Below are positions 2,190 through 11,480 of a DNA stretch of 64,000 nucleotides, in pieces. Each line of letters begins with the position of its first letter. Position 1 is the first letter of the stretch. Below the pieces are notes generated by a model. The model was given only the letters and a program-made list of their open reading frames with translations, was not told where the DNA came from and did not search any database. The stretch is from Pseudanabaena sp. M085S1SP2A07QC. Its GTDB lineage: Bacteria; Cyanobacteriota; Cyanobacteriia; Pseudanabaenales; Pseudanabaenaceae. The translations under genes were made by a program, and so were the position numbers. Location: assembly GCA_020404895.1 (NCBI GenBank), contig JADBWK010000057.1:1-64000 (forward strand), written 5' to 3'.

Positions 2190-4025
2190 ATGATAAATAA
2201 CTGGCTGGACACGATCTGGCTGATTCCCTGCTATTCCCTGATAGGAGCAATGCTATCGATCATCTGGTTTCCCAGCATCACCCGCAAAACAGGACCCAGA
2301 CCAGCAGGCTACATCAATATTTTCATGACTTTCTGCTCATTAGTTCATGCGATCGTCGCTTTGACTGTAGCTTGGGGACAGCCAGCACATTTATTATCTT
2401 TTCCTTGGCTCACGGTCGGAGGACTAGACTTTACAATCGACCTACAGATTTCAGAAATCACCATTGGCGCAATTATCTTGGTTACTGGTATTAACCTGCT
2501 TGCCGAGATTTATGCGGTCGGTTACATGGAAATGGATTGGGGCTGGGGTCGCTTTTATGCGCTACTAGCACTTTTTGAAGCAGGGATGTGCTCCTTAGTT
2601 CTATGTGATTCCTTATTTTTTAGCTATGTCATTCTCGAAATTTTGACCCTTGGAACCTACCTACTTGTCGGAATTTGGTACAACCAATCGCTCGTAGTAA
2701 CTGGGGCGCGAGATGCTTTTTTGACTAAGCGAGTTGGAGATTTATTTTTATTAGTTGGCGTAGTTGGTTTACTGCCCTTAGCTGGCTCTTGGAATTTTAC
2801 GGAGCTAGCGGAATGGGCTAAGAATACTGATGTTAATCCAACGACTATAACCTTGGTCACCTTAGCCCTGATGGTTGGTCCCATGGGTAAATGCGCCCAA
2901 TTCCCATTACATCTTTGGCTAGATGAGGCGATGGAAGGACCCTTACCAAGTACTGTGCTGCGGAACTCGGTTGTTGTCGCTACAGGTGCTTGGGTATTGA
3001 TCAAGTTGCAGCCACTATTTGCATTGTCACCCTTCACGCAGCAGGCTATCATTGCGGTTGGTGCGGCAACCGCATTAGGTGCAACCCTGATTGCGATCGG
3101 GCAAATAGATGTGAAGCGATCGCTGTCATATCTAACCAGTGCGTTTATGGGGCTAATCTTTATCTCCGTTGGTACTGGCGATACCCATAGTGCCTATATT
3201 TTGATTTTGTCCCATGCTCTAGCGATCGCTCTCTTACTAATGTCTGTAGGTAGCATTATTTCAAACAACATTAGCCAAGACCTTACACTTATGGGTGGGT
3301 TATGGAGCCGCCGTCCGATTTCGGGAATCTGCTTTTTAGTGGGTGCGATCGGATTGATTGGATTTCCGCCATTGGGTGGATTCTTGGCTATGGTTGATTT
3401 GCTCTCCTATCTCTGGCAAGAAAATCCTGCTTTAGCAGAGTTGCTGCTATTAATTAATGGCTTGATGGCATTTAGTCTTATGCGCGTATTTGGTCTGATT
3501 TGGGGAGGTAAACCCAAGCAGATGACGGAACGATCCGTAGAGCCCCTATGGCTGATTGTCATCCCAATGACCTTAATGGCAGGTGTAGTATTGCATGTTC
3601 CTCAAATGCTGATCGCTTGGGGCGTTATTCCGAACTGGACGCAGATGCTTAGTCCTGATGCCTTGCTTCTAATCGGCTCAAGTGTTGCAGGGCTTGCTAC
3701 AGGTGGATATCTTTATCTCAATCAGCAAGTACCTAAGCCTGTCACTTTACCTTGGTTAGGCTTACAGAATTTCTTTGCCAATGATTTCTACACCCCAAAA
3801 CTCTACAAGGTCACAATTGTGGGACTAGTAGATGGTGTATCAAAAGCGATGTACTGGTTCGATCGCATTTTTGTCGATGGTGTAGGTAACTTCTTTGGAT
3901 TAGCGACTCTATTTAGTGGTCAAAATCTCCGCTACAGCACCTTTGGTCAGTTACAGCTCTATACCTTAACGATCATGGTTGGTATTGGCATTTTACTTTT
4001 ACTGCTATTCAATCGCACGTTATAA
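2190..4025 (+). CDS. ndhF3: NDH-1 subunit NdhF3 (inducible CO2 uptake)
   Basis: A 611-residue polytopic membrane protein of the NADH-dehydrogenase subunit 5/MrpA antiporter family. Family segments seen include GYMEMDWGWGRFYALLALFE, LTLGTYLLVGIWY, TKRVGDLFLLVG and FPLHLWLDEAMEGPLPSTV. The last is the conserved helix 7/8 region, where typical NdhF has HTWLPDAMEGPTP. Assignment to the NdhF3 type rests on the following genes ndhD3, cupA and cupS, which together form the NDH-1MS complex. That thylakoid complex couples PSI cyclic electron flow to high-affinity hydration of CO2 to bicarbonate. Expression is expected to rise under low CO2. It is first in its operon, 123 bases before ndhD3, with a palindrome in the gap. 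Confidence 0.93.
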   Translation: MINNWLDTIWLIPCYSLIGAMLSIIWFPSITRKTGPRPAGYINIFMTFCSLVHAIVALTVAWGQPAHLLSFPWLTVGGLDFTIDLQISEITIGAIILVTGINLLAEIYAVGYMEMDWGWGRFYALLALFEAGMCSLVLCDSLFFSYVILEILTLGTYLLVGIWYNQSLVVTGARDAFLTKRVGDLFLLVGVVGLLPLAGSWNFTELAEWAKNTDVNPTTITLVTLALMVGPMGKCAQFPLHLWLDEAMEGPLPSTVLRNSVVVATGAWVLIKLQPLFALSPFTQQAIIAVGAATALGATLIAIGQIDVKRSLSYLTSAFMGLIFISVGTGDTHSAYILILSHALAIALLLMSVGSIISNNISQDLTLMGGLWSRRPISGICFLVGAIGLIGFPPLGGFLAMVDLLSYLWQENPALAELLLLINGLMAFSLMRVFGLIWGGKPKQMTERSVEPLWLIVIPMTLMAGVVLHVPQMLIAWGVIPNWTQMLSPDALLLIGSSVAGLATGGYLYLNQQVPKPVTLPWLGLQNFFANDFYTPKLYKVTIVGLVDGVSKAMYWFDRIFVDGVGNFFGLATLFSGQNLRYSTFGQLQLYTLTIMVGIGILLLLLFNRTL

Positions 4026-4027
4026 AG

Positions 4028-4112
4028 ACCCTCACCCCCCAGCCCCCTCCCCTATGGGAGAGGGGGAGTAAGAAAATTTTGTTCTCCTCTCCCATAGGGA
4101 GAGGGGCTGGGT
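4028..4112. repeat. Palindromic 'CCCTCACCCCCCAGCCCC' repeat
   Basis: Arms are C-rich then G-rich (ACCCTCACCCCCCAGCCCC and GGGAGAGGGGCTGGGT) around a short AT-rich middle. It lies in the ndhF3-ndhD3 spacer. The same repeat family occurs at 30651-30752 and inside uvrA at 37530-37570. Confidence 0.75.
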
Positions 4113-4148
4113 CTGATGACATAATCTCTAATTTTAGGAATAAAAACT

Positions 4149-5702
4149 ATGCTTAGTGCTTTAATTTGGCTACCAGTGATTGGAGCTTTAGCGATCGCCC
4201 TTCTCCCGCAAAGTCAAGTTAAAAAAGGATCGGCAATTGTTGCAACGGCGATCTTAATTCTTGATTTCATCCTCTTCCGTCAATTCGACATCAAGATTTC
4301 GTCTTTTCAATTCACAGAAAATTTACCTTGGCTAGAAAATCTTGGTTTAAACTACAGCCTCGGAGTTGATGGGCTATCTTTGCCCCTAGTAGTTCTAAAT
4401 GGATTGATCACTTGGTTAATTGTTTGTTTTTGTGATCGCCAGATCAAAGAACGCAATACACTGTTCCATGTATTAATGCTCTTAATTCATGCAGGTGTAA
4501 GTGGAGCAATTCTCTCGACCAATACGCTGCTATTTGTGTTGTTTTATGAAATAGAGTTAATTCCTCTCTATTTAGTCATCGCAGTTTGGGGTGGCGGACA
4601 ACGTAGTTACGCGGCGATGAAGTTCTTGATCTTCACCGCTATATCAGGAATTCTGATTCTAGTAGGATTCCTAGCTTTAGGATGGCTATCGGCAAATCCT
4701 ACGCCAGTTTTTGACTATGCCACATTACAAACTCTTTCGTTACCGATTGAGATTCAAGTCACTCTCCTAGTGGTATTGCTCCTAGGCTTTACGATTAAAG
4801 CTCCTTTCGTACCATTCCACACATGGCTACCCGATGCCTATGTAGAATCAACAACCCCAACGGTAATGATGCTCGGAGGGATTGTTGCTAAATTAGGAAC
4901 CTACGGTTTGTTTCGCTTTTGTGTCGGTTTATTCCCCGATGCTTGGGCTTTACTATCACCTTGGATTGCAGTTTGGGCAGGCTTAGGAATTCTCTATGGC
5001 GCAATGGTTGCGATCGCGCAAAAGGACATCAAACGCATGGTAGCCTATAGCTCCATCGGTCACATGAGCTATATTCTCCTCGCTGCTGCTGCCGCTACAC
5101 CTCTAAGCATGGTCGGCGGGATCATTCAAATGGTGAGTCATGGCTTAGTGCTTGCCCTACTGTTCTATTTAGTCGGCGTGATTGAAGAGAAAGTTGGCAC
5201 AAGGGATCTTGATGTTCTGAATGGCTTACTTAATCCTATCCGTGGATTGCCTTCTACCAGCGCGTTGCTAATCTTAGGCGGCATGGCAAGTGCAGGTATT
5301 CCTGGGTTGATTGGATTCATCTCAGAGTTTCTGATTTTCCAAGGTAGCTTTAGCAAATTCCCCATTCCCACAATTCTATCGATGATCGGTACAGGGCTTA
5401 CGGCTGTTTATTTCGTAATTCTGCTCAATCGTACTTGCTTTGGTAAATTGGATAATCACACCGCTTACTATCCTAAAGTGTCAGGTATTGAGCAATTGCC
5501 AGCGCTGATTTTGACTGCATTAATTGTGATTTTAGGAGTGCAACCATCTTGGTTAGTGCGTTGGAGCGAAGTAAGTGCGATTCAGATCATCGCTCGTGTT
5601 CCTGAAACTGCGATCGTAGCCAGTACAAGTCTCATAAATGAAGACAGCAATCACTCAACCTATGAGAAAATATCCTTAGCGTTTAGGAGAGATCCAAAAT
5701 GA
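4149..5702 (+). CDS. ndhD3: NDH-1 subunit NdhD3 (inducible CO2 uptake)
   Basis: A 517-residue membrane protein of the NDH subunit 4 (NuoM/NdhD) family. Family motifs seen: NYSLGVDGLSLPLVVLN, FVLFYEIELIPLYLVI (the conserved Glu of helix 5), APFVPFHTWLPDAYVESTTP and QKDIKRMVAYSSIGHMSY (helix 9/10 lysine region). With NdhF3, CupA and CupS it forms the CO2-hydrating NDH-1MS complex of the thylakoid. Its stop overlaps the start of the following Uma2 gene in an ATGA arrangement, which implies translational coupling. Confidence 0.94.
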   Translation: MLSALIWLPVIGALAIALLPQSQVKKGSAIVATAILILDFILFRQFDIKISSFQFTENLPWLENLGLNYSLGVDGLSLPLVVLNGLITWLIVCFCDRQIKERNTLFHVLMLLIHAGVSGAILSTNTLLFVLFYEIELIPLYLVIAVWGGGQRSYAAMKFLIFTAISGILILVGFLALGWLSANPTPVFDYATLQTLSLPIEIQVTLLVVLLLGFTIKAPFVPFHTWLPDAYVESTTPTVMMLGGIVAKLGTYGLFRFCVGLFPDAWALLSPWIAVWAGLGILYGAMVAIAQKDIKRMVAYSSIGHMSYILLAAAAATPLSMVGGIIQMVSHGLVLALLFYLVGVIEEKVGTRDLDVLNGLLNPIRGLPSTSALLILGGMASAGIPGLIGFISEFLIFQGSFSKFPIPTILSMIGTGLTAVYFVILLNRTCFGKLDNHTAYYPKVSGIEQLPALILTALIVILGVQPSWLVRWSEVSAIQIIARVPETAIVASTSLINEDSNHSTYEKISLAFRRDPK

Positions 5703-6295
5703 TTGCCGTACCTCAGAACTATGTCTCAGCCGATGAATATTTGCGATGGGAAGAACAGCAAGAAGAAAAGCATGAGTATATCGATGGGCAAGTTTATGCG
5801 ATGGCGGGAGCTAGTGAGAATCACGTTGATATCACCACTAACTTAACTGTGATACTTTCCAATCATTTGCGTGGTAAAGATTGCAAGCTGTTTCCGTCAG
5901 ATATGCGCTTAAATATTGCTTCAAAAAAGATTTACTATTACCCCGATCTTTTGGTGACTTGTGATGAACGAGATCGATTCAATAAAAAACAAAAAAATTA
6001 TCCCTGTTTAATTATTGAAGTGCTATCGGAATCAACAGAGTCAAAGGATCGCGGTGTTAAGTTTGCTAATTATCAAACCATCCAATCATTACAGGAATAT
6101 GTATTGATCAGCCAATGGGAACAGCGTGTGGAAGTATTTCGCCGTAGTGAGAAGTTCTGGGTACTGCAAACCTATACCGTAGGAGAATTGATCGAATTTC
6201 AAAGTATAAATCTCCAGATTCCCATTGATGCGATTTATGAAGATGTCGATTTATTAGCAGCAAGTTCAGAAGCAATTTTAGAATCAACCATTTAG
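5699..6295 (+). CDS. Uma2-family (DUF820) nuclease-like protein in cup operon
   Basis: A 198-residue Uma2-family protein. The N-terminal signature YVSADEYLRWEEQQEEKHEY is followed by YIDGQVYAMAGAS and SDMRLNI, then YYPDLLVTCDE, whose D fits the PD-(D/E)xK core, and CLIIEVLSEST. This restriction-endonuclease-like fold is abundant in cyanobacteria, mostly with unknown role. It is unusual to find it here: it overlaps ndhD3 by four bases and ends 21 bases before cupA, so it should be co-transcribed with the CO2-uptake genes. A role in carbon uptake is not implied by the family; it may be an insertion. Confidence 0.88.
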   Translation: MIAVPQNYVSADEYLRWEEQQEEKHEYIDGQVYAMAGASENHVDITTNLTVILSNHLRGKDCKLFPSDMRLNIASKKIYYYPDLLVTCDERDRFNKKQKNYPCLIIEVLSESTESKDRGVKFANYQTIQSLQEYVLISQWEQRVEVFRRSEKFWVLQTYTVGELIEFQSINLQIPIDAIYEDVDLLAASSEAILESTI

Positions 6296-6316
6296 ATACA
6301 TAAAAGGTAATCAACG

Positions 6317-7633
6317 ATGACAGCTACTTTGACAGAACCCACAACCAAACTACCGCCTTCCACCCATCCTTACGCAGAAGTTATTCATCGCCTCGAAGCA
6401 GGTGGCTCGATGCTGCCCGATACGCCTGAGAATCTCATGCAGATTATCGGACTTTACAAAGCATATGCTGTACCGATGGATTTCTATTGGCGGGATTTAC
6501 TATACATAGCTGAACAAGTATTTTTAGAGCCAATTCCTGCCTTTAAATATTTTCTTCCCCAAGAATATTTAGACTTGCATAACCACTATGCTGGCGATGA
6601 TGCCGATTTACGTCTCTGGCGTGGATATGCAACAGCGCATCAGGAATTGCTGGATTTCATGGATAAGGGAGAACTCAAAGCCAAAATCCCCAAGATTTTC
6701 CATCATCTCTATCATGATCGCATCAATATGGAGTTCGCGGAAGAATGTATGCGGGCGATGTTATGGCATCGTGGTATGGGCGGCGAGTTAGAGCCTTACA
6801 TGGATTCTGAGGAATATAAGCAGAATGCTGATCGCGCCATTCGGGCTTTCTTTAAAAATAATCCAGTGATGTTGGGACTGTACAAACTTTTTCCTGATAT
6901 GTTCATGGAGCAATGTCGTCAGTCAACCATGACTTCGGTGCTGGGACTATTTTGGGAAATCATGGCTCCCGTATTCTTTGAGATGTCGGATATTTACGAT
7001 GAAGGAGGCTTTAAGGGCGTTCCCGATGCGATGGATTTCTTGGTAAATGGCATCTTTGCGATCGCGGGTCGTCCCATTTATCACCGCGTTAAGATTGGCG
7101 ATGAATGGATGGATATTGTACCCAAATCCAAAGGATTTACTTGGCTATATGAGGCAGCTTTCCCCTATGTTGAGGCTGTGTTTTACCGTACTTCTCCATT
7201 CCGTGGCACAAAGTCCTACAATGCCCAAGCCCATGAAATTCCTGACGATCAGAATGATTTCCACTATGGAATTTTATATGCGGATAAGTTCCCTGTCGGT
7301 TCCGCAGGTATTCCGCCCACATTGCTGCATCAAGACATGTATCATTTCTTGCCGCAATATCTGGTGGACTATTACAAACAACATTGTCGCGGTGAAGATG
7401 ACATGTTAATTCAGTTAGCTGTCAGTTTTCAGCGATCGATGTACAACGTTACTTCGGCTGTAATTCAGGCGGGAAGAGCGGCGTTGCTTTATCCTTTAGA
7501 TGATCCTAATCCTAAACATCTCTTGGCAAATCGTCATTATTTTGAAGGACAACTGAATCGATTCTGTAATCCTAAATATGGCATGGATAAAGCCGCCAGA
7601 ATAGGGATGGTTCAGGATCAGAATTATCGGTAA
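6317..7633 (+). CDS. cupA: CO2 hydration protein CupA (ChpY)
   Basis: A 438-residue soluble protein matching the CupA/ChpY family in length and in the long His/Tyr/Trp-rich alpha-helical sequence (for example PAFKYFLPQEYLDLHNHYAGD and FHYGILYADKFPVGSAGIPP). CupA is the specialised subunit of the inducible NDH-1MS complex. It is thought to hydrate CO2 in a carbonic-anhydrase-like reaction, supplying bicarbonate to the cytoplasm. Its position after ndhF3-ndhD3 and before a fasciclin-domain gene (cupS) is the classic arrangement. A perfect hairpin follows at 7641-7674. Confidence 0.93.
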   Translation: MTATLTEPTTKLPPSTHPYAEVIHRLEAGGSMLPDTPENLMQIIGLYKAYAVPMDFYWRDLLYIAEQVFLEPIPAFKYFLPQEYLDLHNHYAGDDADLRLWRGYATAHQELLDFMDKGELKAKIPKIFHHLYHDRINMEFAEECMRAMLWHRGMGGELEPYMDSEEYKQNADRAIRAFFKNNPVMLGLYKLFPDMFMEQCRQSTMTSVLGLFWEIMAPVFFEMSDIYDEGGFKGVPDAMDFLVNGIFAIAGRPIYHRVKIGDEWMDIVPKSKGFTWLYEAAFPYVEAVFYRTSPFRGTKSYNAQAHEIPDDQNDFHYGILYADKFPVGSAGIPPTLLHQDMYHFLPQYLVDYYKQHCRGEDDMLIQLAVSFQRSMYNVTSAVIQAGRAALLYPLDDPNPKHLLANRHYFEGQLNRFCNPKYGMDKAARIGMVQDQNYR

Positions 7634-7640
7634 CTACGAA

Positions 7641-7674
7641 TTTGTAGGGGCAATTCATGAATTGCCCCTACAAA
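7641..7674. repeat. Perfect palindrome TTTGTAGGGGCAATTCATG
   Basis: A 34-base perfect inverted repeat with AATTCATGAATT at its centre, in the cupA-cupS gap. A close relative with compensated changes (GTGGGGACAATTCATGAATTGTCCCCAC) lies at 55202-55250, so this is a dispersed element. Confidence 0.7.
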
Positions 7675-7729
7675 TTCCCCCTTCAAATATGCATTTTGAA
7701 AATTTTATAACAAACAAAAAGAACCAACT

Positions 7730-8182
7730 ATGCCCACAATTGTTGATATTGCTGTTAGTAACGAAGCCTTCTCCACACTCGTCACCGCTGTATCGGCTGC
7801 GAGCTTAGTGGAAGCATTACAAAGTCCAGGTCCTTTCACCGTATTTGCTCCTACTAATGATGCTTTTGCCAAATTACCCGATGGAACTATTACTACATTA
7901 GTCCAGAATATTCCTCAACTGGCAAGGATTTTAACCTTCCATGTTGTTTCAGGAAAATATAAAAAAGAAGACTTAGTCGGCGTGAAATCGTTGATTTCTT
8001 TGGAAGGCACACAAATTGATCTTGATGTCTCCGAAGAAAGCTTCGAGGCAAATAATGCCACGGTGATAGCTGCTGATATCGAAGCTGATAATGGTGTGAT
8101 CCATGTAATTGATAACGTCATGCTGATGCGTCCTCATTGGTTTTATCCAATTATGGAATCTGGCAAAGTTGGTGTGGTGTAA
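7730..8182 (+). CDS. cupS: Fasciclin-domain protein CupS
   Basis: A 150-residue single fasciclin (FAS1) domain: [20 protein letters not shown], the H1 box [19 protein letters not shown], and the C-terminal H2-like [12 protein letters not shown]. There is no signal peptide, so it should be cytoplasmic. In cyanobacteria a small FAS1 protein encoded after cupA is CupS, a peripheral subunit of the inducible NDH-1MS complex. Context therefore gives the name. Strong terminator-like stem follows at 8187-8235, ending the operon. Confidence 0.88.
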
Positions 8183-8186
8183 TTAC

Positions 8187-8235
8187 AAAAAAAAGCATTA
8201 AAAGTCCTGCTGTGCAGGACTTTTAATGCTTTTTT
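8187..8235 (+). terminator. Terminator of the cup operon
   Basis: Long perfect stem (AAAGCATTAAAAGTCCTGC with its complement) around a 3-base loop, ending in a T run. Confidence 0.85.
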
Positions 8236-8272: not shown

Positions 8273-11089
8273 ATGTTTACACAGCTATCTGAACGGCGAA
8301 TGCATTTGATTCGCTGGATATTAACGATCGCTTGGTTACTGATCATTGCGTCATTATTTTACGATCCATGGACTCCTCAATTTACAGTCCCCAATCATCC
8401 TTGGAGTCCATTGCGGTTAATCGATAGTTGCATCTCTGTACAAGGTAACTGCTTAGTAGAGCAGCCCTATGCCATCGGTACGACTATATTCTGGGGAGCG
8501 GTTGTCCCTGCGGCGATTTTCATTTTGCTGGTATTTGGGCATGAGGTATGGCGACGGATTTGTCCGCTCTCATTTTTATCACAAATCCCTCGCGCCTTGG
8601 GTTGGCAGCGTCAATTTAAACGCGAAAATGCCAAAACTGGCAAGGTTCGCTATGAGTTAGCCAAGGTAAAGCCCGATTCTTGGCTAGGCAAAAACTATCC
8701 CTATGTGCAGTTTGGCTGGTTATTTGCAGGACTATGCGGTCGGATTTTATTTTTTAATGCCGATCGCCTAATCCTCGCTCTATGGATATTGACGACGATT
8801 GCTGCTGCGATCGCTGTGGGCTATCTCTACGGTGGTAAGTCTTGGTGCAATTACTTCTGTCCGATGGCTCCTGTACAGCGCGTTTACAGTGAGCCAGGAG
8901 GACTATTTAGCAGCAGTGCTCACACTAGCGATCAGTTGATTACGCAATCGATGTGTCGAACTGTAATGCCCGATGGCAAAGAGCAAAGTGCCTGTGTGGC
9001 TTGTCAAAATCCTTGTTTGGATATTGACTCTGAGCGAGTATATTGGGATGGATTGAGCAAACCTGAAGAATCATTGCTGAGATATGGCTATATTGGTTTA
9101 GTTACTGGCTATTTTGTCTATTACTATCTCTATGCAGGTAATTGGGATTATTATTTCTCTGGTGCATGGGCAAGGCAGTCGGATCAATTGGCAACCTTGT
9201 TTAGTGCAGGATTCTATCTATTTGGACAAGCGATTAATATTCCCAAACTAATTGCCGTACCTTTAACGCTGGGCGTTTTTACCGCAGTTGGTTATTTATT
9301 AGGTCGCTGGGTGGAAAAAAGGATCAGGATTTACAGTGGTGATCGCCATCTCAATCTATCTAGAGAAATCATTCGTCATCGTATTTTTACTGTTTGTACA
9401 TTTACAATTTTCAACTTCTTCTTTATTTTTGGCGGGCGTCCGTTAGTCGCTTTGATGCCACTTTGGGGGCAATATATCTATGACTTGGGATTGGTTTTGC
9501 TCAGTACACTTTGGGTGTATAAAACTTGGCAGCGTAGCCCCGATCTCTACTCACGGGAGAATTTAGCCAGTCGCTTCCGTAAGCAATTAGAGAAGTTGCA
9601 ACTTAATGTTTCCCAGTTTTTAGAAGGGCGATCGCTCAGCGATTTGAATACCCATGAAGTTTATATCTTGGCAAAGGTTTTGCCTAGCTTCACTAGAGAA
9701 AAGCGCCACACTGCCTATAAAGGAGTGGTGCGCGAAGCCTTGGAAGAAGGATATGTTGATTCATCCAGCAGTTTAGAGGTCTTGCAACAATTACGTCAGG
9801 AACTCGGAATTACTGATGATGAACACCGTGAAGTATTAGAAGAACTCGGCATTGAAGATCCGCAATTGCTAAATCCCGATCATAAGCGTAGTTTAGAAAA
9901 TCAAATTCGCTTGACGGGCTATCGCAAATCGATGGAGCGATTGATGCTATTGCAAAAGCAACAGTTTGATAACTCTTCCGATACTTTACTTGAGCAGAAC
10001 TCAGCTCAAGTGCGAGCCTTACGCCGCCAATATGCAATTAATCCGCAGGAAGAGGCTTGGATTTTGGATGGCATTTCCCCCGAATCAGGAAAACTGCGTA
10101 GAGCCGAGTTTTTAGTCGCTCAGTTGCCATCTTTGATTTTCTCTTATCGATCGCTGCACCAACCGATCCTTCAAGAGCATCAGACTGTGCTGAGACTTTT
10201 GTGGGATAGCATTAATCACAAAAAAGAGTTAATTGTTCGCACCATTTTAGGAACTTTGGAGGCTTTCCCAAAGGATGCCGATGCGATCGCTGTTGCCCAG
10301 CAGTTAGGAGAATTAGCGCCATCAGTTTTGGTGGAAGCCTTAGAATCTGAGAGCTGGAGCAATCGCTTATCTCCAGAGATACTGCAATGTTTACATCCAT
10401 CGCAGGGACAAGCGACTGTCTGTCAGCTTGATTATTCGATTGAGGAGATTTTGCGATCACTGGAGCCTTTGCTAGATGATCAAAATCCTTTGATGCAAGC
10501 TGCTTGTTTGTATATCACCGCGCAACTGAATCTTGAGCAAAGTAAGGCGATCGCTCGTAATTACAGTCTGCAAACTTCGAGCTTAGTTCAGGAAACGGCT
10601 AAGATCGTGCTATCGCTGACTGAGAGTTCCCCGCCGCTCACAGCATTTCCGATGTTAGAGAAAGTAGCGCATCTCTTTAATAGCGATTTCTTCCATCGGA
10701 TGCATGGTGAAACGTTGGTAGGGCTTGCCGATCTCGCTGAGGTGAGAGCCTTTACGACGGATGAGGTGATTACGGAAGCAGGTGATACTTGTCGTGAGTT
10801 GCTGCTAGTAATTACTGGCTCAGCGAAGATTAATTTCTATTCGCAGGGAGAGGTAGTGCGTGTTGAGCATCTCAAGTCTGGACAAACTCTAGATGAGCTA
10901 GAGGTTTTAGCCCATAGTGATTCTCAAAATACAATCATTTCTGAAAGTGAGGTTACGCGAATTTTGGCGGTTCCTGTGGATGCCTTTGATGCTTTTCTCG
11001 ATCGCGATCGAGATTTTGCTCGTCGTGTTCTCGAACTAGAAAGCCGTCAATTGCAAAAATTTATGCGATCGTTCCAGACTGCAAAATAA
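8273..11089 (+). CDS. Membrane Fe-S protein with C-terminal cyclic-nucleotide-binding-like domain
   Basis: A 938-residue protein with at least three parts. Residues 1 to about 420 hold several membrane helices and cysteine motifs: C97 in RRICPLSF, C192 and C196 in WCNYFCP, then C228 and C241-x2-C244-x3-C248 (CVACQNPC). These resemble the membrane ferredoxin-like proteins NapH/NosR. The middle (about 430-790) is helical and soluble with HEAT-like character. The C-terminus (about 795-935: DEVITEAGDTCRELLLVITGSAKINF) resembles a CRP/cNMP-binding fold. I infer a membrane electron-transfer protein with a sensory domain, but no substrate can be named. It follows the cup operon after a terminator and may be an independent unit. 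Confidence 0.75.
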   Translation: MFTQLSERRMHLIRWILTIAWLLIIASLFYDPWTPQFTVPNHPWSPLRLIDSCISVQGNCLVEQPYAIGTTIFWGAVVPAAIFILLVFGHEVWRRICPLSFLSQIPRALGWQRQFKRENAKTGKVRYELAKVKPDSWLGKNYPYVQFGWLFAGLCGRILFFNADRLILALWILTTIAAAIAVGYLYGGKSWCNYFCPMAPVQRVYSEPGGLFSSSAHTSDQLITQSMCRTVMPDGKEQSACVACQNPCLDIDSERVYWDGLSKPEESLLRYGYIGLVTGYFVYYYLYAGNWDYYFSGAWARQSDQLATLFSAGFYLFGQAINIPKLIAVPLTLGVFTAVGYLLGRWVEKRIRIYSGDRHLNLSREIIRHRIFTVCTFTIFNFFFIFGGRPLVALMPLWGQYIYDLGLVLLSTLWVYKTWQRSPDLYSRENLASRFRKQLEKLQLNVSQFLEGRSLSDLNTHEVYILAKVLPSFTREKRHTAYKGVVREALEEGYVDSSSSLEVLQQLRQELGITDDEHREVLEELGIEDPQLLNPDHKRSLENQIRLTGYRKSMERLMLLQKQQFDNSSDTLLEQNSAQVRALRRQYAINPQEEAWILDGISPESGKLRRAEFLVAQLPSLIFSYRSLHQPILQEHQTVLRLLWDSINHKKELIVRTILGTLEAFPKDADAIAVAQQLGELAPSVLVEALESESWSNRLSPEILQCLHPSQGQATVCQLDYSIEEILRSLEPLLDDQNPLMQAACLYITAQLNLEQSKAIARNYSLQTSSLVQETAKIVLSLTESSPPLTAFPMLEKVAHLFNSDFFHRMHGETLVGLADLAEVRAFTTDEVITEAGDTCRELLLVITGSAKINFYSQGEVVRVEHLKSGQTLDELEVLAHSDSQNTIISESEVTRILAVPVDAFDAFLDRDRDFARRVLELESRQLQKFMRSFQTAK

Positions 11090-11189: not shown

Positions 11190-11480
11190 CTATCCAGCTT
11201 TAAGTCGTTTAGTCTTGACTCCGACCCTATGGATATTACCTTGATTTCCTTTGAGCGCTAATACATAATCTGCATCTTGTTCAATGATTGTTTTGGCTAT
11301 TTCGGTCTGACATCCCATTGCGTCTATGCTGACCAAACAACCTCGAATTGCCAACATTTCTAGCAATGGTGGGATAGCGGTTATTTCATTTGATTTCTCT
11401 CTAACTTTCTTCTGTCCCAGCACCAAATGCTGTGTTGCCGACCAAACACGCACCATATGAATTAGGCTACGGGAGTTGCC
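11190..11480 (-). pseudogene. ISAs1-family transposase fragment
   Basis: Encodes an internal piece of an ISAs1-family (H-repeat-type) DDE transposase: [27 protein letters not shown], then [16 protein letters not shown] with the catalytic Asp, and [11 protein letters not shown]. Both the N-terminal third and the C-terminal third are missing. The last residues ([11 protein letters not shown]) do not look like the family. A decayed insertion sequence. Confidence 0.8.

Follow-up and report, generated by a model that had tools for sequence, protein, structure and literature searches.

The locus

The window, which is the whole 64,000-nucleotide stretch analysed here, comes from a cyanobacterial genome of 4.8 Mb. 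The gene of interest is an ORF running from an ATG to a stop codon with 938 open codons, and its coordinates and frame are exact (Table 1). An earlier note on this DNA placed it next to a CO2-uptake operon, and Pfam bears this out, with cupA assigned to ChpXY and cupS to Fasciclin; ndhF3 and ndhD3 were named from order and sequence only. A Uma2-type nuclease gene, likewise recognised by Pfam, lies between ndhD3 and cupA (5699-6295) and overlaps the ndhD3 stop codon. A Uma2 match was also obtained in L038 (related loci carry L numbers), and in L135 a similar gene stands before cupA; no Uma2 gene was found in L006.

The gene and the adjacent NDH-1MS operon share a strand, with a strong hairpin between them about 37 bp before the start codon. 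The stem of this hairpin is kept with compensating changes in L006 and is present with different letters in L134, L135 and L136; L133 differs. The hairpin may end most transcripts or attenuate the downstream gene, so that simple co-transcription of the gene, as the last member of the cupS operon, does not follow from its position. Just past the gene is a DDE transposase fragment on the reverse strand (11190-11456, Pfam DDE_Tnp_1).

Table 1. Features of the gene and its upstream region, in window coordinates.
Feature	Position	Strand	Basis
CO2-uptake operon upstream: ndhF3, ndhD3, Uma2 gene, cupA, cupS	2190..8182	+	ORFs; Pfam
Hairpin between cupS and the gene, terminator- or attenuator-like	8189..8235		Stem kept in relatives
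Gene: 938-aa membrane protein with Fe-S motifs and CNB-type C-terminus	8273..11089	+	ORF, related loci, Pfam
Membrane domain, residues 1-420, eight modelled helices, both ends cytoplasmic	8273..9532	+	AlphaFold2 model, loop charges
C53 and C60, Cys pair in far-side loop	8429..8452	+	70/75 each; acidic loop 30-67 modelled outside
C97 (Cys-Pro), start of positive cytoplasmic loop	8561..8563	+	75/75 relatives; charges
C192xxxC196P, C228, C241xxC244xxxC248, probable [4Fe-4S] ligands, one cytoplasmic loop	8846..9016	+	75/75; Fer4_5
Helical middle, residues 423-821, HEAT-like at most	9539..10735	+	Helices in model; no HEAT family match
CNB-type domain, residues 825-912	10745..11008	+	PF00027 bits; fold match
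C840 in GDTCRELL, class-I-specific Cys	10790..10792	+	67/67 class I, 1/14 other CNB tails
Altered phosphate-binding cassette around GQTLDELEVLAHSDSQNTII	10880..10942	+	Gly to Asp; Arg absent in 67/67 class I

Occurrence and classification of related loci

The ORF encodes a real, conserved protein, with at least 66 related loci in named genomes. The closest named relatives among the matches listed are found in Phormidium tenue FACHB-1050 (98% identity) and Pseudanabaena sp. UWO311 (96%). A family member was detected in 36 of 292 sampled genomes of the phylum (E 1e-20), and the C-terminal third of the protein in 22 of 386 (E 1e-30); among 58 genomes drawn as relatives, 36 gave a match at E 1e-100. 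Relatives of the protein are widespread yet patchy.

After near-identical copies (98% or more) were merged, 133 loci remained, comprising 67 of class I, which is defined by a DELEVL motif, and 66 others. For L069-L087, wider stretches covering these places were used instead, and L030 and L164 were counted among the others owing to broken frames. In a tree built by a quick method from 129 rows covering the N-terminal 445 residues, all 67 class I members fall in a single 77-row group with an SH-aLRT value of 96. The ten additional rows of this group include two that run into contig ends (L021, L023) and three with broken frames (L030, L033, L164), and the remainder are short rows (L036, L056, L058, L127, L129).

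The membrane domain and its cysteines

The AlphaFold2 model of the full protein has a mean pLDDT of 80.0 and a pTM of 0.59 (68 sequences), and that of residues 1-450 a pLDDT of 85.0 and a pTM of 0.85 (73 sequences). Eight membrane helices were read from the latter. Loop charges place both ends and the strongly positive loop 97-136 in the cytoplasm and the acidic loop 30-67 outside; loop 187-263 is cytoplasmic by helix count, its own mean charge being slightly negative. Seven cysteines (C97, C192, C196, C228, C241, C244 and C248) are invariant in all 75 aligned relatives and sit in modelled cytoplasmic loops, although much of the cysteine-rich loop (C192-C248) is modelled at low confidence. C53 and C60 are each kept in 70 of the 75, on the far side in the modelled topology, and C155 is kept in 57.

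The last six of the invariant cysteines are probable [4Fe-4S] ligands, and the pattern suggests at least one cluster and perhaps two. Seven cysteines are fewer than two full sets of four, which bears on whether C97 completes a second cluster. Pfam Fer4_5 (PF12801) was matched at residues 175-206 with 22 bits, exactly at the cut-off of 22 and therefore borderline. The earlier note had named loss of the Cys motifs in homologues as a refutation; the seven cysteines are kept in every aligned relative.

The likeness to NapH drawn in the same note stands only in a weak form. Members of the NapH/MauN family have two CxxxCP motifs and two C-terminal ferredoxin motifs, and this set was not found in the present protein, which has one CxxxCP (C192-C196), one Cys-Pro (C97) and one C-x2-C-x3-C. 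The NapH/MauN model TIGR02163 returned 11.8 bits against a cut-off of 213.05, so by this test the protein resembles NapH weakly and is not a family member. A Foldseek search of the membrane part against the PDB returned nothing below E 1.2, and a second look gave no match with a Z of 5 or more; these searches do not demonstrate a new fold. The top fold matches of the full model are sperm Na+/H+ exchangers; their TM to the entire protein is about 0.1, and the CNB domain probably accounts for them.

The helical middle and the C-terminal domain

The middle of the protein is mostly helical in the model. No HEAT family was reported in a Pfam scan of the protein, and the one HEAT_2 match seen, in the relative L090, is below the cut-off. 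The anatomy proposed in the earlier note (an Fe-S membrane part, a HEAT-like middle and a CRP-type end) is largely right, apart from the HEAT repeats, which were not recognised as such.

The CRP-type end is well founded. Pfam cNMP_binding (PF00027) scores 40.1 bits against a cut-off of 27.5, which places the domain in the CNB fold, and the model matches solved CNB domains, two of them with TM values of 0.75 and 0.80 of the target. The CNB match is followed by 26 further residues, and Pfam reported no helix-turn-helix family of the CRP/FNR type there.

Proteins that bind cyclic nucleotides (cNMP) have a phosphate-binding cassette with a Gly-Glu and an Arg. CNB tails were aligned for the 67 class I members and 14 others, with the FHA proteins of Rhizobiaceae left out. 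The phosphate-binding Arg is kept in none of the 67 class I members, 42 of which have Ser at this position. The cassette Gly is Asp in all 67 and the following position, Ala or Gly elsewhere, is an acid in 64, although the Asp and Glu of class I are true by definition because the DELEVL motif defines the class; the loss of Arg, the presence of C840 and the N-terminal tree are independent of that definition. Outside class I, the Arg survives in six of the 14 tails (L089, L091, L093, L102, L159 and L160). To judge from these residues, the class I tail has probably lost the usual mode of cNMP binding. The earlier note had suggested that electron flow might be coupled to a small-molecule signal and had named the lack of a cNMP pocket as a refutation; the redox half of this design agrees with the seven invariant cysteines, and coupling to a cyclic nucleotide is not supported, the pocket being missing at the sequence level in class I.

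Inorganic carbon uptake genes near class I loci

The tie to carbon uptake is stronger than the earlier note could see. In class I, 31 of the 67 loci have a gene for inorganic carbon (Ci) uptake within their fetched flanks, compared with two of the 66 other family loci (Fisher p = 2e-9, counting related sequences and ignoring kinship), and the two links outside class I (L030, L164) belong to broken members of the same branch. Which genes to score as Ci genes was decided once the neighbours were known, and the other family loci serve as the control. Loci with short flanks were kept in these counts; when only loci with 5 kb or more of upstream sequence are considered, the link is seen in 25 of 52 for class I and two of 45 for the others. 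The fetched flanks of the remaining 36 class I loci contain no Ci uptake gene.

The linked class I loci are associated with cmpABCD (19), NDH-1MS/cupA (seven), sbtA (three), bicA (one) and bicA together with cupA (one). The Ci gene is at most 700 bp away in 25 of the 31. Nineteen class I genes lie downstream of the named Ci system on the same strand, and eight are divergent from cmpA. In L003, L018 and L032, the gap between cmpD and the gene is 33-44 bp and contains no hairpin. In L145, the gene follows a bicA match by 189 bp, with cupA 2.8 kb off on the other side; sbtA is next to the gene in L158, as is cmpABCD in L137. When these labels are placed on the tree, NDH-1MS requires one change, BCT1 eight and SbtA three.

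The assignment of the ABC operon is supported by its binding protein. In PDB searches at two loci, CmpA reached 622 and 614 bits with the bicarbonate-binding structure, compared with 473 and 439 bits for NrtA, and CmpA beats NrtA by tblastn in all 16 class I cmp loci that have a binding protein in range; three of the 19 cmp links (L003, L010 and L121) were assigned by CmpD/CmpC similarity alone, with the binding protein out of range. NrtABCD nitrate uptake was considered for this operon and rejected, as CmpA outscores NrtA. SbtA was identified by Pfam in three of three cases, and SulP and STAS domains were found in both BicA proteins, of which that in L014 was named by eye and that in L145 matches it at 62%.

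Five class I loci in different parts of the tree have a prokaryotic diacylglycerol kinase-type gene 3' of the gene on the same strand. The set comprises L003, L009, L010, L011 and L018 (+1 gene), and Pfam was applied in L009 only.

Tails and reductases in the rest of the family

Elsewhere in the family, the same membrane core is joined to different tails. EF-hand tails were found in all three proteins tested (L040, L042 and L054), which represent a version seen in Crocosphaera, Microcystis and Trichodesmium, and suggest calcium control of the core. FHA and CNB domains occur together in L089-L091, FHA is present in two Rhizobiaceae plasmid proteins, and a [2Fe-2S] ferredoxin domain (Fer2) is fused to the core in L096; L056, L058 and L109 have no tail. 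A separate observation is an Mrp-like gene, named by eye on the basis of similarity, near four Microcystis-type loci (L042, L046, L049 and L068).

A reductase with FAD, NAD(P) and [2Fe-2S] domains is encoded downstream, on the strand of the membrane protein, in 20 of the 66 non-class-I loci, compared with none of the 67 class I loci. Its domains were tested by Pfam in six loci. All five cyanobacterial reductases tested contain FHA, FAD-binding, NAD-binding and [2Fe-2S] domains; at the Rhizobium L107 locus, an FHA domain was reported for the membrane protein and none for the reductase. In L060, L063, L090, L097 and L161 (+1 gene), the membrane Fe-S-motif protein forms a gene pair with an FHA-FAD-NAD(P)-[2Fe-2S] reductase that comes after it; this pair, with a Ser/Thr kinase upstream in some loci, is a possible phosphorylation-gated electron path. 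The FHA-tailed relatives L107 and L108, from Rhizobium and Agrobacterium plasmids, share a gene order whose other members are a cytochrome c peroxidase, a response regulator accompanied by an ATP-binding protein, and the reductase.

Upstream of L063 there is a Ser/Thr kinase with WD40 repeats, as there is, by annotation, for both plasmid copies in Leptolyngbya boryana NIES-2135. Several reductase-linked membrane proteins have Thr-rich tails with TVxxP-like motifs, a loose pattern. These arrangements suggest that the FHA reductase could be docked by a phosphorylated tail, and they support electron transfer as the job of the core. The EF-hand, FHA or ferredoxin tails and the neighboring reductases likewise point to an electron-transfer protein.

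Proposed role and alternatives

The best reading, to which we lean tentatively and at somewhat less than an even chance, is that the protein is a membrane-bound [4Fe-4S] redox switch of the low-Ci response. It is drawn from features of the sequence, namely the invariant cysteines of core and tail, the conserved far-side pair, the lost cNMP arginine and the placement beside four Ci systems, together with a modelled topology. The cysteines would hold clusters that are charged by electrons at the cytoplasmic face. In photosynthetic cells, the donor would most simply be reduced ferredoxin, a suggestion prompted by the lack of a reductase neighbour in class I, and the clusters would thereby report light and electron pressure. 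The helical middle would relay the cluster state to the tail. Acting as a protein contact rather than as a cNMP sensor, the tail would raise or tune Ci uptake under an ample supply of electrons and a shortage of carbon.

Several observations favour such a switch: the conservation and modelled cytoplasmic side of the seven cysteines, the ferredoxin-type electron input in relatives (Fer2 in L096 and the reductase in 20 of 66 loci), the excess of Ci links in class I, and tails that behave as interchangeable signal modules (CNB, EF-hand and FHA). Against it, the gene is patchy (22 of 386 genomes), so that most genomes seem to manage without it, more than half of the class I loci (36 of 67) have no Ci gene in their flanks, and in the window the hairpin parts the gene from cupS. 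The linkage statistics count related sequences, and a single change on the tree accounts for the NDH-1MS label. In addition, phosphorylation is given as the cause of light reactivation in a 2026 review on the carbon-concentrating mechanism (PMC13249358).

The strongest rival, although we consider it unlikely, is that the protein is an electron valve of the low-carbon state, which would divert surplus electrons from ferredoxin into the quinone pool or another acceptor without acting on the transporters. The Fe-S motifs and the electron-input partners of relatives would be expected here too, and adjacency to four unrelated Ci systems fits a shared regulon, arising only from a shared need when carbon is short, as well as it fits a shared partner. 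Such a valve leaves unexplained both the 500-residue cytoplasmic tail kept across class I and the signal-module tails found elsewhere.

A broader version of the redox switch, bolder and quite improbable at present, is that the proteins form an undescribed family of modular [4Fe-4S] redox platforms, in which interchangeable signal domains (CNB-like, EF-hand, FHA, and phospho-threonine tails with an FHA reductase) gate the input or output of electrons, with the window branch as the missing light- and electron-dependent activator shared by BCT1, SbtA, BicA and NDH-1MS. If this were true, the absence of the activator would help to explain the silence of BCT1 in E. coli.

There is a small chance that the protein is a transmembrane thiol reductase, passing electrons from the cytoplasmic clusters through C53 and C60 to periplasmic or lumenal proteins. 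The conservation of these two residues in an outer loop of the model would suit this role, as would the cytochrome c peroxidase and TlpA-type protein near Rhizobiaceae relatives, but C53 and C60 could equally be structural, and no thioredoxin-like partner stood out by eye among the 30 largest neighbour clusters.

Two further alternatives are very improbable. A redox-driven Na+ or H+ pump energising Na+-coupled bicarbonate uptake would accord with the SbtA and BicA neighbours, with a Na+/H+ exchanger as the next gene downstream in two loci of Nostoc and with the Mrp-like genes near the four Microcystis EF-hand-type loci; Pfam reported no redox-pump family for the protein, however, and the commonest partner, BCT1, is ATP-driven. 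The idea of the earlier note, a redox protein gated by cAMP or cGMP, is of similarly low probability. It has in its favour the CNB fold seen by Pfam and in the model, the Arg kept in six of 14 tails outside class I, and the description of cAMP as a high-CO2 signal in cyanobacteria (in sections of PMC13249358), but in class I the Arg is missing from all 67 members, the Gly has become Asp and the next position is acidic in 64. Least probable of all is that a plasmid-mobile gene settled at Ci loci by accident: copies do occur on cyanobacterial plasmids and occurrence is patchy, but 31 of 67 is far above a rough estimate of 2.4% per locus, four different Ci systems are involved, and the only two links among the 66 other loci are in broken copies of the same branch.

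Relation to known systems

According to sections of PMC13249358, the light-on, dark-off switching of cyanobacterial bicarbonate and CO2 uptake is only partly settled, and BCT1 in its native form shows no activity in E. coli. This inactivity hinders the transfer of carbon uptake to other hosts. The redox switch proposed here is a candidate for a missing redox control of carbon uptake, and a membrane redox protein encoded beside four Ci uptake systems offers a definite gene for experiments. In the wider family, control of electron delivery to a membrane protein by a kinase and an FHA-linked reductase is a testable idea.

The Synechocystis protein slr0593 ('cAMP binding membrane protein') is a possible counterpart, although no identity is claimed. 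One paper on it is PMC3516471. Titles and abstracts in open-licence PubMed Central yielded no paper on the family or its Ci link. In a term search, 'cyclic nucleotide' was not found in the searched portions of the review PMC13249358 or of a 2026 redox-signalling review (PMC13421787), nor was 'uncharacterized' in the former.

The small regulators SbtB and CupAR are thought to tune Ci uptake, as is proposed here for the present protein, and are set apart from it by their descriptions. SbtB is a small PII-like protein (in sections of PMC13249358), and CupAR is a 127-aa, two-helix protein encoded in the ndhF3-cupA operon (in sections of PMC11456788). An identity with CupAR (sll1736) was rejected on grounds of that length and helix number. 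A hybrid-cluster NAD(P)-dependent oxidoreductase is an annotated neighbour of the same core in Rhizobium etli and Agrobacterium relatives, and is beside none of the 67 class I loci.

The NapH/MauN-type membrane ferredoxins share with the present protein a polytopic membrane part with Cys-Pro and CxxxCP motifs; unlike them, it carries one CxxxCP and one C-x2-C-x3-C set and extends into a long regulatory tail. The fold of the C-terminal domain is common to the CRP-type CNB domains, whereas the class I domain differs from these in lacking the phosphate-binding Arg, in the change of Gly to Asp, in the presence of C840 and in having no DNA-binding domain after it. What is new is the combination of a membrane ferredoxin-like protein with regulatory tails, in a new functional context.
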